Positions 23,154 through 29,819 of a stretch of DNA of 64,000 nucleotides are shown one piece after another (the first letter of the stretch is position 1; each line of letters starts with the position of its first letter). The stretch spans positions 2,341,501 through 2,405,500 of the forward strand of contig NZ_CP112881.1 of NCBI RefSeq assembly GCF_026409565.1, given 5' to 3'. The translations under genes and the position numbers were made by a program. The notes under the pieces are model-generated. The model was not told the DNA's origin and made no database searches. It was given only the letters and a program-made list of their open reading frames with translations. The stretch comes from Sneathiella aquimaris. GTDB lineage: Bacteria; Pseudomonadota; Alphaproteobacteria; Sneathiellales; Sneathiellaceae.

Positions 23154-23318
23154 CGTAAGTCTCCAGATTAAAAGAAAATTAAATTGGGTTTATGCCATGC
23201 ATATTGCTTAGCGACCATTTTATCGTCAAGAACAAACTTACCCGGCTCAACCTCGCATCATTCAACAAGCAACTGAACACGATCACTGGTAAAACTGGTG
23301 CTTCCATCTTCTATGGGC

Positions 23319-23478
23319 CTGCCGTTTTTCATCAGCAACAACACCTTGCGTCAACAGGGTAGGCCAAGTTTTCCGCTGGCAAAAAACCGTTGAGGACGAC
23401 ATCGTTCAAATTGACGCTAGCGGTCCACCTGAAGGGGCTGACCAGTTCTTCATCCACCTGATTTCCGATCCATTTTAA
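23319..23478 (+). pseudogene. Possible remnant of a PhnN-like kinase C-terminus
   Basis: The 334-bp gap 23154-23487 has no intact gene. On the plus strand one frame gives 'LPFFISNNTLRQQGR' (from 23319), and after a shift another frame runs 'VFRWQKTVEDDIVQIDASGP...FFIHLI' to the stop at 23478. The pieces resemble the 'LRxRGRE' and 'xIDNSGPLE' ends of ribose-1,5-bisphosphate kinase PhnN. That is my reading by eye and it is weak. It gains some weight from the decayed phosphonate-type acetyltransferase and the intact DUF1045 gene beside it. The Walker A half is absent. Confidence 0.3.
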
Positions 23479-23487
23479 TCGACGGTG

Positions 23488-24183
23488 TTATGATAAACCG
23501 AACCGCCTGATCAATCGAAATGGTGACCCATTCCCCGGATCCCCAAACAAGCAGAGTTGGTCCAGAATGAAAGGCGAACGTCTCAAATCTTCAGTCTCAC
23601 GCTCTAATATTTCTGTAAGCGGCTCTTTCTCGCTTTCATCGAGAATATCGGTCAAGGTCAAGTGAAACTGAAAATCCTCCAGGATGTAAGGATATCCCCA
23701 CGAAAGCAGATTATCTTCCTGTCGATCAGTGAGCTTTTCTCTCCGCCTGTATTCCAATTCCTCCTGACTGAGAGGTAACCGGAATTTGTCCAGCTCCTTC
23801 ACACAGGAGGCCGCCACAGTGTTCAATGCTGTCAAATCCCCCGCAGGACAAAGCGCCATGAAATCACCAATAATCTTTAACGTAAGGGATCCCACCTCGA
23901 CCGCGGTTAATCGCTCAGACAAAGCCTTAAGGGCATCCTCCAGATGCCTTTGATTGAAATCCGGTTTCATAAAAAAAGGAGGCTTCAATGTCCCGTGAAA
24001 ACCGTAATGTGTTGGCGCCCGGGTAAGATCCTGAATTTGTTGAAATGACAATTCAGGGATTTGGGGTCGTGGTATCATTAACCCGGTAAATGGGTCCCTA
24101 CCCAGCCAGCTATTGCCAAACTCTGACAACAGCGTATCAAACTTAGGGGCATAGTATATGGCATAACGCTTATAACTGTTCAT
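23488..24183 (-). CDS. DUF1045 phosphonate-metabolism-associated protein (2H phosphoesterase fold)
   Basis: The ATG at 24183 has AGGAG 5 nt upstream and starts 'MNSYKRYAIYYAPKFDTLLSEF', the usual opening for this family, giving 231 residues. Two H-x-T-x motifs ('GFHGTLKPPF' near 80 and 'FHLTLTDIL' near 175) mark the 2H phosphoesterase superfamily. DUF1045 genes normally lie in C-P lyase (phn) operons, where the protein may act on a cyclic-phosphate intermediate. Its exact reaction is not settled. Here the neighbours are broken, so the gene is either a survivor of a lost operon or has been re-used. Confidence 0.82.
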   Translation of the reverse strand: MNSYKRYAIYYAPKFDTLLSEFGNSWLGRDPFTGLMIPRPQIPELSFQQIQDLTRAPTHYGFHGTLKPPFFMKPDFNQRHLEDALKALSERLTAVEVGSLTLKIIGDFMALCPAGDLTALNTVAASCVKELDKFRLPLSQEELEYRRREKLTDRQEDNLLSWGYPYILEDFQFHLTLTDILDESEKEPLTEILERETEDLRRSPFILDQLCLFGDPGNGSPFRLIRRFGLS

Positions 24184-24283
24184 GAAGCTCCTATTCGACA
24201 TCAACTCTGCGACAGGATTCCTGCGCAAATAATTCTCGAGAACCTGACAAGCGCACCCTTAGCAGGTCATGAGGCCAATACCA

Positions 24284-24811
24284 TCATCGAATGTTTAACA
24301 GACTATCCGAACATCCTGAGAATATCGCTCTCCCATCACAGGCCTTCGGAACGCCTTTTATAATGGTATAGGGCGGTAGGTTCTTTGTGACAACCGCTGC
24401 CAACCCGGTGAACGGGCCGGTTTCCATTCGAACCCCGCCCTGTATCGTTACAGCATGCCTGATCCAGACACCATGATCAATCAAGACTTATAACAAGCGA
24501 CATCTTAAAATAGTCCTGATCCCTGTCGTCCAACTCATCCATCTTACGGCGGCAATGACAATTAACGATTGGGCACGGTCTATCGCCAGTTGGCCCTGAT
24601 TGCACAGGATTTCGGTCGCAAGATCAAAAAGTTTTCCGATTTGAAATAAATGGTGTCCCACCATTCACCCCATCGGAGTAGTCACCTATCGATGTTGCAA
24701 TGATTTTAGCCCGCTCTCCCACGTAAGTACCAAACTCAAGATTGTCGCTGTCGACTGGAGGATCGGCACAAGGCGAGGTTTCTTCTGATTGTCTGGCAAT
24801 CTATCGCTCAT
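24284..24811 (-). pseudogene. Decayed hexapeptide acetyltransferase of the phosphonate-cluster type
   Basis: Pieces of one left-handed beta-helix acetyltransferase can be read in order on the minus strand, but in different frames. They are 'MSDRLPDNQKKPRLVPI' from an ATG at 24811; 'DNLEFGTYVGERAKIIATSI' then 'GDYS'; 'IGKLFDLATEILCNQGQLAI'; 'DDRDQDYFKM'; and 'IDHGVWIRHAVTIQGGV' with 'AAVVTKNLPPYTIIKGVP'. The order and content fit the acetyltransferase family found in phn operons. At least two or three frameshifts plus stops make it non-functional. The rest of the 24184-24980 gap (24812-24980) shows nothing I recognise. Confidence 0.75.
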
Positions 24812-24980: not shown

Positions 24981-27014
24981 TTACACGGCTGTTTTTTCTG
25001 AGGCATCCAGTTCGTGTTGCCTGGATAAATAGATAAGATGCATCAGGCAATCATTACCAATGGCCATCCCGCAGAGTGACGCGCATTGTATGGCCATCAA
25101 ACACGAACGTTTCTCTTCATCCGGCAACTGATTAAAGTGATCCTGAGAAACCGCCTGCCCATTAATGCCAAACCTTTCCCGTTCGGACTGACCTTCAGCC
25201 CATTCAGCATCCGCTTCTTTATCTGCCGAATATAAAATGCCTTTTTTACAGACCCGGGTGAGCAACGAAGCCGCGGCTTGCGTTTGTTCATTCGCAAGGT
25301 CAATGCCTTCATCCAGAACCAAGTAATCCGCCTGCTCAAAGCCCAAGCCATGGTTATAAATCGTATCCACACTATTTTGCAGTAAAGCGACATCGACAGA
25401 CGGGTTCCAGAGAACAGCCTTAGCCGCATCAGGCGGTGTGCCCAATCCAATAAGAGGACTAGCCCCGACAAACGCATTTTCGTCGTTTTGAAGACCCACT
25501 GTTAAGCCGTGATAATCGAAAATAGCCTGCAACCAATATGAAACACGGGAAGTGCCGTTGGATAAGACCGCAACTGTCGGGATCTGAGCATCCTCCCCTT
25601 GTGGCCACATAAGTTCAAAAACCCGTTTGAACTGCTGTAGCTTTTGATCCCCCGGTCGTTCAATATCGAAAATTGCAGGCATGACATTGACTTCACAAAT
25701 TCGACCTTCCGCTTCCCAATAAGGTCTGCTGATATCTTCGGTCAGGAAATCAACGCCTGCGACCTGTAACCCAATCGCAACCGCGGCCTGTTCCGCCATT
25801 GAGATATTATCCGGGTGGACCTGATCTGTGACATCGTCAAAGTTGCCCCCCTGGCTAAGGTTAGGCACTTGTTGCAAATAAATGATTTGACCATCATCGG
25901 GGATAATGGACCAGTTCAGTTCCTGTTTTTCAAGGTTGCGGGTGGTGTCTTCTGAAATGGGAATACCAAAAATCAATTTACCATCCGGCCCTTTACGCCA
26001 GTCAGCTTCATTGGCCTTTTCAACAAGCACCCGAATGCTATCCTGCCCATTCCCCGTCACATTTGCCCGGTTCCGGCGAATACATAATTGAAACTCCCCA
26101 TCGACAATATGAAATCGGTAATCTTCGCCCGTAATATGCTCTTCAATCAGCACATGCTGATGAAATTTTGAAGCCCTGTGAAACGCATCCCTCACCTCCT
26201 CAAGGCTGCTGGCTTTTGGTGTTATCCCAAAGCCTTGAAGTCCAAACAAAGGTTTTACAGCAACTGGAAGACCAATTCGTTTTGCCGCCTGTAGGGCTTG
26301 TTGTTCAGATCTGACAACCTGCTGAGGCGCAACGGGCAGACCTGCAAGGCTCAATAATTTTTGAGTTTGCTCTTTGTTATTTGCGGCAGACGCCGCAATA
26401 TGGCTTTCCTGATGAACAATAGACCGGTCACAACTTTTTCGGTTTCTGCCATATCCAAAAAATACCAACTTGTGATTTGCCGATACTTTTCGCCAGGGAA
26501 TTGATCTTTGCTCAGCCAGTTTAATGAATTCAATAACGGGCCGACCTAAAGACAGCCGTTTGTTCAAAACTGAAGCTTCTTGCTGAATTGCCTCCAGACG
26601 TTGGGCGAATTGGGCAAGACTATTTTCAAATTCATCGGGCGTGAGTTCATTAAACAAACCGTAAAGCAGGAACATCACCCGTCTGCACACTTCGTTCACT
26701 GTAAAAGGAACATAACAGGTAAAATAACCGGTGTCTTCTTCCTGCTGAACATATCCGTCTGCGATTGGGCCGCAAACCGTCTTCATGAGCGTTGCCGATA
26801 TCTGGACCAAGGCACTGCATATCAGGAAATCGGGAAATTCCTTGGCTTCTGGCCGAAAATCGACTTTTCCTGCTCCACACAGCTTTTGCGCAAAATCACC
26901 GGGTTCAGGGAATGAGCGGACATCCACATCAAACACGTATTTAAGTACCGGTCCCTTCGCAAAAAGGTTAGGGCCATCATATATCGTAACGCTTTTAGCC
27001 AGTAGAATGCTCAC
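24981..27014 (-). CDS. Cyanophycin-synthetase-like ATP-grasp protein with degenerate, short Mur-ligase domain
   Basis: 677 residues. The N-terminal domain (1-160) opens 'VTIYDGPNLFAKGPVLK', like the cyanophycin synthetase N domain. An ATP-grasp ligase (about 210-455) has 'NNKEQTQKLLSLAGLPVAP', 'PVAVKPLFGLQGFGI', 'HVLIEEHITGEDYRFHIV', 'NLSQGGNFDDVTDQVHP', 'VAGVDFLTEDISRP' and 'ICEVNVMPA'. From about 478 a Mur-ligase-like part begins, but the P-loop position (CphA 'GTNGKTTT') reads 'SNGTSRVS' without the Lys. The protein stops some 200 residues short of CphA1. This resembles the one-active-site CphA2 layout. It is probably a peptide ligase; the product is unknown. No cyanophycinase gene is nearby. 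Confidence 0.8.
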   Translation of the reverse strand: MSILLAKSVTIYDGPNLFAKGPVLKYVFDVDVRSFPEPGDFAQKLCGAGKVDFRPEAKEFPDFLICSALVQISATLMKTVCGPIADGYVQQEEDTGYFTCYVPFTVNEVCRRVMFLLYGLFNELTPDEFENSLAQFAQRLEAIQQEASVLNKRLSLGRPVIEFIKLAEQRSIPWRKVSANHKLVFFGYGRNRKSCDRSIVHQESHIAASAANNKEQTQKLLSLAGLPVAPQQVVRSEQQALQAAKRIGLPVAVKPLFGLQGFGITPKASSLEEVRDAFHRASKFHQHVLIEEHITGEDYRFHIVDGEFQLCIRRNRANVTGNGQDSIRVLVEKANEADWRKGPDGKLIFGIPISEDTTRNLEKQELNWSIIPDDGQIIYLQQVPNLSQGGNFDDVTDQVHPDNISMAEQAAVAIGLQVAGVDFLTEDISRPYWEAEGRICEVNVMPAIFDIERPGDQKLQQFKRVFELMWPQGEDAQIPTVAVLSNGTSRVSYWLQAIFDYHGLTVGLQNDENAFVGASPLIGLGTPPDAAKAVLWNPSVDVALLQNSVDTIYNHGLGFEQADYLVLDEGIDLANEQTQAAASLLTRVCKKGILYSADKEADAEWAEGQSERERFGINGQAVSQDHFNQLPDEEKRSCLMAIQCASLCGMAIGNDCLMHLIYLSRQHELDASEKTAV

Positions 27015-27100: not shown

Positions 27101-28351
27101 TCAGGCCGGTGCAAGCGCCCTTTCGTGAATGGGTTTCTCTTTCACTGGAAGATGAATGATGGCTGAAAAGGCTCCCACACCCACGCCAACCCACCAAACC
27201 GCATCATAGGATCCAAACTGATCATATAATGTCCCACCGAGCCATACGCCCATGAAAGAGCCGAGCTGGTGTGAGAAAAACACGATCCCATAAAGCGTGC
27301 CCATATATCGAAGGCCGTAGATATGAGCCACCAATCCGGACGTCAGCGGCACTGTTGCCAGCCACAAAGCTCCCATAACAATCGAAAACAGGACAACACT
27401 TGTTGGCGTCATCGGGTAAAGAATAAACGCGGCCGAGGCAACTGTGCGCCCAACATAGATCCAGACGAGAAGGTATTTTTTCGCAAAATGCTTACCCAAT
27501 GCCCCAGCGACAACAGTTCCAATTACATTTGCGGCACCAATGATGGCAATCGCAAAGGCGCCAAGGGCAGAGGTGGAACTGATCCCCAGACTGCGCATCA
27601 TACTATCAGGGGCAATGGCCGCACAGACCTCGGTAATATACGCAGGAAAATGGGCTGTAACAAAAGCCAGCTGAAAACCACACGAGAAAAATCCCAGAAA
27701 AATCATACAATAAGATGGATCATAGAAGGCCTTTTTTAACACCGCCCCCATACTTTCGTGCAGCTCTGCTCGTGTCGCCATTGGCTGTTCAGCGCGCAGG
27801 AAAGGCAGGGCAAACAAGACCAAAAGAATGACCCCGGCAAATACCAGAAACACTGAGGACCAGTTCATATATTCCAACAGGAAAACCGCAGCTGGCGGTC
27901 CGATAATCTGCCCGGCCGAACCAGCGGCAGTCGCAATCCCCAAAGCCATCGATCTGTTCTCTTCAGACGCCGCCCGCCCCACAATCGCCAGAATGACGCC
28001 AAAACCTGTACCCGCAATACCAAACCCAACAAGGATTTCCAGCAGTTGATGGCTTTCCGGGGTGACAGCATAACTGCTCATTATCAACCCGATGGAATAT
28101 AAAACTGCCCCCAGAATAATGGCGCGACGTTCTCCAAATTTCTCCGCAAAAGCACCAAAAATTGGTTGCCCAACACCCCATGCCAGATTTTGTATTGCAA
28201 TCGCTAATGAAAATTCTGACCGTAACCAGCCAAATTCCTCAGCGATTGGAATTTGAAATACCCCAAAGCTGGCGCGAATGGCGAAACCTGTCATCAGGAT
28301 AAAACATCCCGCAATCAAAACAGGCGTAAACAGATTTGAACTTTGACGCAT
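27101..28351 (-). CDS. MFS transporter
   Basis: From the ATG at 28351 (GAGG upstream) the protein is 416 residues. An upstream extension to 28537 has low hydrophobicity and no ribosome-binding site. Twelve membrane segments, with 'GFAIRASFGVFQIPIAEEFGW' in helix 1 and 'FGERRAIILGAVLYSIGLIMSS' after helix 2 (the MFS loop motif). It resembles oxalate/formate antiporter-like and monocarboxylate-type MFS carriers. The cyanophycin-synthetase-like gene starts 86 bp downstream on the same strand, so they may be co-transcribed. The cargo is unknown. Confidence 0.87.
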   Translation of the reverse strand: MRQSSNLFTPVLIAGCFILMTGFAIRASFGVFQIPIAEEFGWLRSEFSLAIAIQNLAWGVGQPIFGAFAEKFGERRAIILGAVLYSIGLIMSSYAVTPESHQLLEILVGFGIAGTGFGVILAIVGRAASEENRSMALGIATAAGSAGQIIGPPAAVFLLEYMNWSSVFLVFAGVILLVLFALPFLRAEQPMATRAELHESMGAVLKKAFYDPSYCMIFLGFFSCGFQLAFVTAHFPAYITEVCAAIAPDSMMRSLGISSTSALGAFAIAIIGAANVIGTVVAGALGKHFAKKYLLVWIYVGRTVASAAFILYPMTPTSVVLFSIVMGALWLATVPLTSGLVAHIYGLRYMGTLYGIVFFSHQLGSFMGVWLGGTLYDQFGSYDAVWWVGVGVGAFSAIIHLPVKEKPIHERALAPA

Positions 28352-28583
28352 TGGGGCCTCACAAACTGGAAATCGCTGATCCGTGAAATTCCGAAAGAGA
28401 TAGAAGTTACTTTTAATAATGTACCAGTCCTTCTGTCTCACCATACCCGCAAATCGGATGCAACCTCTTCTTTGTCCTAGGGACAAAGTTGGCAGGATTT
28501 CTATTACTTTCGTCACAAAAAGTGGGCTTTCCCACATAAAATTATTAAATTATAATATACTCGTTCACTGAGGGGGAAAGCGA

Positions 28584-29819
28584 ATGCCGGATTTTGCAAC
28601 GATAAAAAAAACATCAACAAACCGAATATCCATTGTCATCGCTTTGCTCTTGCTTTGGACCTTGGGCGTCACATTCATCGTTTCGTATATCAGCCCATTG
28701 GAAGAAATCATCGCCAGCGCCCCGTTAGGCGAAGAGGAAAAGAAAACCGCTCAAAAACAACTGGATAGGCTAACCCTGCAAAGTGACAGCGCGACGGTCC
28801 TTGCAAAATACAGTGATAGCCTTCTGGTTGCCTATAGTGACGCAACTCAACAGATAAAAAAGTTTCTTAAACATGACCCCGCCGAAAGCGCTTATCATAA
28901 TTACCAGACGATCGTTCACGCCGTAACCAGTATCGAAACCAACAAAAGCGTCATTTTAACTGACAGTCGCGGAAGCCGGTCAAACAAGGTCCTATCAACA
29001 GATTACCGGTACAGCAATTACGACACACAAGAAAAACCGGCAACACTGAAAGAATTATCCCTTCATGTATGGCAACCCCTCGTCACAATGGCACAACAGA
29101 AAGGAGGAACGGATAATTACAGAACCAATCCAGTGGATTTGGCGTCTCTTACACCAGTGTTGCGGGAGGGGATGGAATATAAACCCATTATTCTGGGAAA
29201 CGACGCCTCTTACGCGAACCGGATCGAGGCGGCGATGATCTTTACCGAACAGGACGGCAACATTTCAGTACTCCCAAAAGGAGACAGGGAAACCCCGCTT
29301 TATGCATTTCTCGATTGGGTGTCAGAGGGAAAAACTTCAGACAACCTGAACAATAGAGCAGAGAAAAACATCCAGCAGATCGTCACGGCCCTTGAGACGC
29401 ATATCGAAAAGTTACAGAAACAAAAAACACAATATGATCAGGCCAAAATCAGTTACAACAATCAACTAAAAGGCCTGCAAAGTCGTTTACGCAGCTCTGA
29501 ATCCCTGTTTTTTGTCGCGACCTTTCGTGCCTTTCTCGTCACCGTCGTCATCATTTCGATCGGTTTTGTCCTTATTCGCGCATTTGCGGCGGAATTGACG
29601 CAAATGCGTAGGGTCAGTTATCTCGAAATCGCGGCTGACCTGACCTCCCAATATCCAGCGGAAGTGTTAAAACATATGCCAGACATTATTCGTGCTGTTG
29701 GCGGTGACAAAGCAGGCGCCCCGACCCTTTCAGATGGATCGCCACCGGACGCGATCACGGTCGCGGAAAAACTTGGGAACGCTGTATCAAAATTCTCAAC
29801 GGCGTCAAAACCGCTCTAA
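28584..29819 (+). CDS. Unrecognised two-helix inner-membrane protein with large periplasmic domain
   Basis: 411 residues that I cannot place in a family. Membrane helix 1 spans about residues 15-36 and helix 2 about 312-335 ('AFLVTVVIISIGFVLIRAFAAEL'). The roughly 275 residues between should be periplasmic and are Lys/Gln-rich with heptad-like stretches near 268-310 ('VTALETHIEKLQKQKTQYDQ'). The C-terminal 75 residues are cytoplasmic and carry no HAMP, kinase or methyl-accepting domain. The topology is sensor-like without an output. An AGGGGGAA site precedes the ATG. Its stop overlaps the convergent MFS gene by 4 bp. Confidence 0.75.
   Translation: MPDFATIKKTSTNRISIVIALLLLWTLGVTFIVSYISPLEEIIASAPLGEEEKKTAQKQLDRLTLQSDSATVLAKYSDSLLVAYSDATQQIKKFLKHDPAESAYHNYQTIVHAVTSIETNKSVILTDSRGSRSNKVLSTDYRYSNYDTQEKPATLKELSLHVWQPLVTMAQQKGGTDNYRTNPVDLASLTPVLREGMEYKPIILGNDASYANRIEAAMIFTEQDGNISVLPKGDRETPLYAFLDWVSEGKTSDNLNNRAEKNIQQIVTALETHIEKLQKQKTQYDQAKISYNNQLKGLQSRLRSSESLFFVATFRAFLVTVVIISIGFVLIRAFAAELTQMRRVSYLEIAADLTSQYPAEVLKHMPDIIRAVGGDKAGAPTLSDGSPPDAITVAEKLGNAVSKFSTASKPL

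Follow-up and report, generated by a model that had tools for sequence, protein, structure and literature searches.

A CphA-like protein family in Sneathiella with conserved ATP-grasp residues and a dead Mur-ligase half: candidate single-site amide ligases

The window analysed here is a stretch of 64,000 nucleotides from the 3.94-Mb, single-contig genome of Sneathiella aquimaris. It contains a 677-codon gene with a GTG start, a few bases downstream of the purine-rich sequence AGAGGGGG, whose product (P0001) is related to cyanophycin synthetase (CphA). The gene runs on the minus strand, a detail not given in the original prediction. Judged by its residues, P0001 belongs to a variant, spread through the genus, of a known type of enzyme; in this variant the ATP-grasp machinery is intact and the Mur-ligase half is dead. 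We propose that it is probably a monofunctional ATP-grasp ligase that arose from a proteobacterial CphA1 and forms an amide (peptide or isopeptide) bond in a product other than cyanophycin. According to the model, the ATP-grasp (G) domain would bind MgATP through Lys214, Lys254, Asp422, Glu441 and Asn443 and phosphorylate the carboxylate of an acceptor, Arg300 would stabilize the resulting acyl phosphate, and attack by an amine would then generate the amide bond. The Mur half, lacking its P-loop and C-lobe, should not bind ATP, and its core would remain together with the N domain as a scaffold. The features are collected in Table 1. The original prediction, made from the DNA letters alone, had placed the gene in a probable heterotroph, in agreement with the genus Sneathiella as identified from named relatives that include S. 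glossodoripedis JCM 23214. Literature searches returned no paper on such CphA-like proteins in Sneathiella, and P0001 had no PADLOC match that would identify it as a defence gene.

Table 1. Features of P0001 and of its surroundings in the window (residue numbers in brackets refer to TeCphA1 unless marked aa)
Feature	Position	Strand	Basis or remark
Putative CphA-derived single-site ligase P0001, 677 aa	24981..27014	-	profile, PDB, AF2 and Foldseek matches
N domain	aa ~1-155
ATP-grasp (G) domain (aa ~156-478)	25581..26549	-	best conserved part of P0001
Lys214 (Lys220), kept	26373..26375	-	alignment
Lys254 (Lys261), kept	26253..26255	-	alignment; PMC9427784
Gln260 in place of His267, ATP-grasp P-loop	26235..26237	-	alignment
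Arg300 (Arg309), kept	26115..26117	-	alignment
Asp422 (Asp431), kept	25749..25751	-	alignment
Glu441 (Glu450), kept	25692..25694	-	alignment
Phe449 in place of Arg458	25668..25670	-	alignment
Mur-core remnant	aa ~479-600
SNGTSR (aa 486-491) at Mur P-loop position, no Lys	25542..25559	-	alignment
Divergent C-tail	aa 601-677
MFS transporter gene	27101..28537	-	upstream, 86-bp gap to ligase
DUF1045 gene (TIGR03223), intact	23488..24228	-	orphan of C-P lyase (phn) operon
Broken phn-operon hexapeptide transferase remnant	24229..24643	-	36% over 143 aa, E 3e-21
Short remnants, ends of two phn-region genes of relatives	23154..23487		22-23 aa each

By profile comparison, the resemblance of P0001 to CphA is far beyond chance. 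The protein matches the NCBIfam models PRK14016 (3.6e-100, 336 bits; cut-off 877 bits) and TIGR02068 (318 bits; cut-off 850 bits); because it stays below both cut-offs, curated rules would not name it cyanophycin synthetase. The model for NAGGN synthetase, TIGR03103, gave 145 bits, also short of its cut-off (569). Among PDB entries, CphA1 chains matched at 4e-70 to 4e-53 and CphA2 chains at about 1e-43. A structure predicted with AF2 from an 11-row alignment (pLDDT 84.1, pTM 0.75) displays the N-G-M fold of cyanophycin synthetase, with an ordered N-terminal domain and a well ordered Mur-core remnant. Foldseek aligned this model over its full length to CphA1 chains (TMq 0.63-0.76), with TeCphA1 and SuCphA1 ranking first (TMq 0.70-0.76) and CphA2 (7ta5, 8fxh) following (TMq 0.58-0.65). 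Structure prediction and alignment, the checks proposed at the outset, therefore both identify CphA1 as the best match. With CphA1 (TeCphA1 7wac/7wae, TmCphA1 7lgn, AbCphA1 7lgm) the protein shares the N-G-M order, the ATP-grasp residues and the Mur-core fold; it differs in lacking the Mur P-loop, the Mur lid and the HxxEH motif, in changes at Arg458, His267 and Glu215, and in being about 200 residues shorter.

Residues of the ATP-grasp site were mapped by aligning P0001 to TeCphA1, with numbers from PMC9427784. In TeCphA1, Lys220 contacts the ATP phosphates, Arg309 contacts the acyl phosphate (the R309A mutant is nearly inactive), and Asp431 and Glu450 are Mg2+ residues (PMC9427784). All have identical counterparts in P0001, as do R323 (R314), N394 (N385), S396 (S387) and N452 (N443); loss of ATP-grasp catalytic residues, which would have counted against the ligase reading, was thus looked for and the residues were all found in place. 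Retention of R323 and N394 is uninformative about the substrate, because NAGGN synthetases keep them as well. Four positions are changed: E215 to S209, H267 to Q260, G456 to A447 and R458 to F449. The N domain, like the ATP-grasp domain, had been described as well kept, but at the sequence level it is not: only its fold is kept, identity being 20-22% within the subgroup of P0001 and 12-14% to the other groups of the genus. It also lacks HxxEH, an N-domain motif of primer-independent CphA1 that is absent in CphA2 (PMC9262961).

At the position of the Mur P-loop, P0001 reads SNGTSR where TeCphA1 has GTNGKTT. Alignment with CphA1 breaks off near residue 564 and the protein ends at residue 677, leaving no Mur C-lobe or lid (residues 724-876 in TeCphA1; PMC9427784). 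The missing lysine and the missing 200 or so C-terminal residues had both been described correctly in the original prediction, as had the similarity of this loss to that in CphA2. CphA2 is defined by the loss of the Mur P-loop and Mlid with the ATP-grasp site kept (PMC9427784), and P0001 has both properties: its Mur half is dead and its ATP-grasp residues look live. Cyanobacterial CphA2 (7ta5 from Gloeothece, 8fxh from Stanieria) is also similar in length (629-642 aa) and likewise has a single active site and no HxxEH. This shared reduction (PMC9427784, PMC9262961) raises the alternative that P0001 is a working counterpart of CphA2. It would take beta-aspartyl dipeptides scavenged from outside, beta-Asp-Arg or a different one, and join them back into cyanophycin or a related polymer, with the isoaspartyl dipeptidase IadA in a catabolic role. 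We regard this as quite unlikely. The Mur remnant is not CphA2-like: when aa 425-610, which comprise it and the last part of the G domain, were compared with both enzymes, E values were 5.6e-13 to 2e-10 for CphA1 and no better than 0.05 and 0.2 for CphA2. Because the remnant resembles CphA1 so much better, comparison of these sequences tentatively suggests that the P-loop and lid were lost in the Sneathiella lineage independently of cyanobacterial CphA2, and it lends no support to a shared origin with CphA2.

The distribution of cyanophycin genes bears on the same alternative. A search of the whole genome with P0001 returned the protein itself and a weak match within a long ATP-grasp frame, and no second CphA. 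The genome has five genes with Mur-ligase domains: a cluster of four at C1:2900303-2908506, probably MurC/D/E/F, and a single gene at C1:68263-68913 that is probably FolC. Cyanophycinase of the S51 type, the isozyme type covered by the search, was absent from all 16 genus genomes searched, that of S. aquimaris included, and IaaA was absent from all 25 genus genomes. The lack of a second CphA or a cyanophycinase, first noted for the vicinity of the gene, accordingly extends to the genome. The absences of S51 cyanophycinase and IaaA, in a proteobacterial host, speak against a CphA2 counterpart; however, that of S51 is not decisive, because most beta-proteobacteria with cphA1 also have no recognisable S51 cyanophycinase (PMC10206079). 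The third gene of interest, isoaspartyl dipeptidase, was present, a point in favour of a CphA2 counterpart: IadA scored above its curated cut-off in 3 of the 25 genus genomes, those of the window, G004 and G005, which are exactly the three that carry a ligase of group I (defined below) at the MFS locus. In S. aquimaris the gene lies at C1:1748609-1749769 (within L149:8601-11361; counterparts in L150 and L151), beside a DUF1835 gene and about 0.6 Mb from the ligase. Against a CphA2-like pathway, the three genomes look like sister species, so that the co-occurrence may reflect a single event, and the fourth genome with a group I ligase, G019, has no IadA above the cut-off. The association of IadA with group I ligases is therefore a lead only.

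Substitutions within the ATP-grasp pocket also argue against a CphA2 counterpart and favour a single-site ligase with a different substrate. In TeCphA1, Arg458 lies near the alpha-carboxylate of the incoming aspartate (PMC9427784). The role assigned to it is to read that group, while Glu215 reads the primer arginine and His267 is catalytic. With these residues replaced by Phe449, Ser209 and Gln260, and with most genes for cyanophycin breakdown lacking, it is probable that the acceptor, the nucleophile or both differ from those of cyanophycin. The earlier suggestion of a different peptide or amide is favoured by the loss of Arg458 and the missing catabolic genes. Among the sampled proteins, CphA2 excluded, all 6 in which both sites are intact keep Arg458, and of the 27 that combine a dead P-loop with a live ATP-grasp site, 21 have lost it (nominal Fisher p 0.0008, which is overstated because the rows are related); the pattern is a lead. 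Within the genus, nine of the 12 proteins have lost it; as a counterpoint to the proposed ligase, it is kept in L040, L045 and L047. N-acetylglutaminylglutamine synthetase (Ngg, TIGR03103), a member of the same branch of the ATP-grasp superfamily, resembles P0001 in having Gln at position 267 and in lacking Arg at 458. Ngg differs in lacking a Mur remnant and in falling as an outgroup in the tree (100/100); Ngg-like matches occur in G002, G014 and G022 and not in S. aquimaris.

Homologues of 600-690 aa were found in 9 of the 25 genus genomes, some in tandem. A scan of the genome contigs with the single protein gave nothing; a scan with an alignment gave eight loci. The 12 genus proteins form one clade (support 100/99, in a tree without CphA2 rows) with three groups: group I (P0001, L036, L037 and the fragment L040, which is the closest relative of P0001 by the tree), group II (L039, L041 and the two pairs of adjacent genes carried by G019 and G008) and group III (L045, L047). 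All 12 lack the Mur P-loop, and the C-lobe is missing from all genus homologues. The tandem pairs of truncated CphA-like ligases lie at L038:1618-5662 and L042:625-4565, and the second copy in G008 (L042:625-2568) also lacks the loop residue equivalent to Asn394. Adjacent CphA-like genes occur in other Proteobacteria as well (for example in G533, G583 and G748); there one partner is a CphA whose open frame spans about 856 aa, whereas in Sneathiella both are truncated.

The family has diverged quickly. Between the window and G005 the ligases are 38.6% identical, while most flanking proteins are 66-88% identical; the C-terminal half of the G004 ligase is 43.8% identical to that of P0001. Between G008 and G019, MFS identity is 88% and the ligases reach 55% and 41%; between G015 and G024 the figures are 80% for an HD protein, 67% for a PhyH oxygenase and 36% for the ligase. 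Synonymous sites are saturated, so that dN rather than dN/dS was compared: it was 0.37-0.70 for the ligase and 0.07-0.33 for most flanking genes, although DUF1045 (0.49) and a membrane-type protein encoded nearby (0.52) are fast too. Such rates, together with the patchy presence and tandem copies within the genus, would be expected of a relic of CphA1 that is decaying or no longer catalytic, either drifting freely or retained solely as a binding protein. Enzymes of this design can die, judging by the nearest relatives of the genus clade in the tree, two proteins of gammaproteobacterial OM182 (support 98/93; L061:9479-11347 and L062:9479-11347), which have lost the equivalents of R309, R323 and E450 and from their sequences are probably dead pseudo-enzymes. 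For Sneathiella, however, we consider a relic unlikely. Every genus copy not cut by a contig end has an intact full-length frame, and the equivalents of K220, K261, R309, R323, D431, E450 and N452 are unchanged in 11 of 11 full-length homologues despite strong divergence; drift would not spare exactly those residues. Identity to P0001 is concentrated in the G domain, at 46-48% in L036, L037 and L039 compared with 12-22% in the N domain and 10-18% in the tail (50% for the G part and 32% for the tail of the L040 fragment), a pattern that fits selection on a ligase active site. That the catalytic core is conserved while the rest evolves fast fits an active enzyme whose demands are changing better than it fits free drift.

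The neighbouring genes do not reveal the product of the ligase. As first described, an MFS transporter gene precedes it. The two genes share a strand and no terminator-like site separates them, but the arrangement is not supported as a clue to function. MFS orthologues (72% or more) occur in 11 of the 25 genus genomes; all nine ligase-bearing genomes are among them and are probably one subclade of the genus. In G006 and G012 the MFS gene is followed by hydroxybutyrate dehydrogenase with nothing between, and in G015 and G024 directly by a phn operon with no ligase there. A functional link between transporter and ligase was not supported as specific, the MFS gene standing without an adjacent ligase in these four genomes. 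Further upstream, positions 28584-29819 encode on the opposite strand a membrane-type protein of no clear family, between two MFS genes and 45% identical to its G004 counterpart.

Downstream of the ligase, the scraps at 23154..23487 sit between DUF1045 and the hydroxybutyrate dehydrogenase gene. Given these phn remnants and the absence of PhnJ from the genome, DUF1045 is probably the leftover of a deleted phn operon, with a scar spanning 23154-24643. The locus brings to mind a phosphonate-linked ligase that would, for example, attach an aminophosphonate: phn genes or DUF1045 are found near the ligase in the window and in G004 and G005 (in the latter two the MFS gene is apparently followed by the ligase and then phn genes, split over contigs), and group III ligases adjoin an HD/PhyH oxygenase pair (L045:7142-9138, L047:4677-6631) whose HD protein is weakly PhnZ-like. 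This is very improbable. The phn operons of G015 and G024 occupy the MFS locus without a ligase, the window retains only scars, and 22 of the 25 genomes have the HD gene irrespective of the ligase. The functional link was rejected as shared location.

Taken beyond P0001, the proposed single-site ligases may be a fast-diversifying, Sneathiella-specific set, derived from CphA1 without sharing the origin of CphA2, whose product is a new non-cyanophycin amide or isopeptide, as part of a recurrent loss of the Mur site and change of Arg458 in alphaproteobacterial CphA1 lines; we put this forward tentatively, as a possibility somewhat short of probable. If the enzymes are active, a two-site polymer synthetase can be reduced repeatedly to a single-site ligase, and the family would be a natural source of CphA G domains whose altered substrate pockets could serve to make non-cyanophycin peptides. 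In wider samples, a dead P-loop was seen in many further CphA-like proteins of alphaproteobacteria, and other parts of the phylum had full-length CphA1 and tandem cphA pairs. Labels of 'cyanophycin synthetase' in alphaproteobacteria may cover proteins that lack the Mur active site, so label-based surveys of cyanophycin makers may overcount. On plasmids and phages, the matches listed comprised only CphA1, Ngg, GshAB and weak hypotheticals. A mirror case was seen in G026 (contig C93, L054:8473-10902), where an 809-aa CphA-like protein has an intact Mur P-loop (GTNGKST) but an ATP-grasp half that is dead, with K220 changed to E, K261 to L and R309 to A; the same genome also encodes an 878-aa protein in which both sites are intact (L043) and a 786-aa protein with a dead P-loop (L044).
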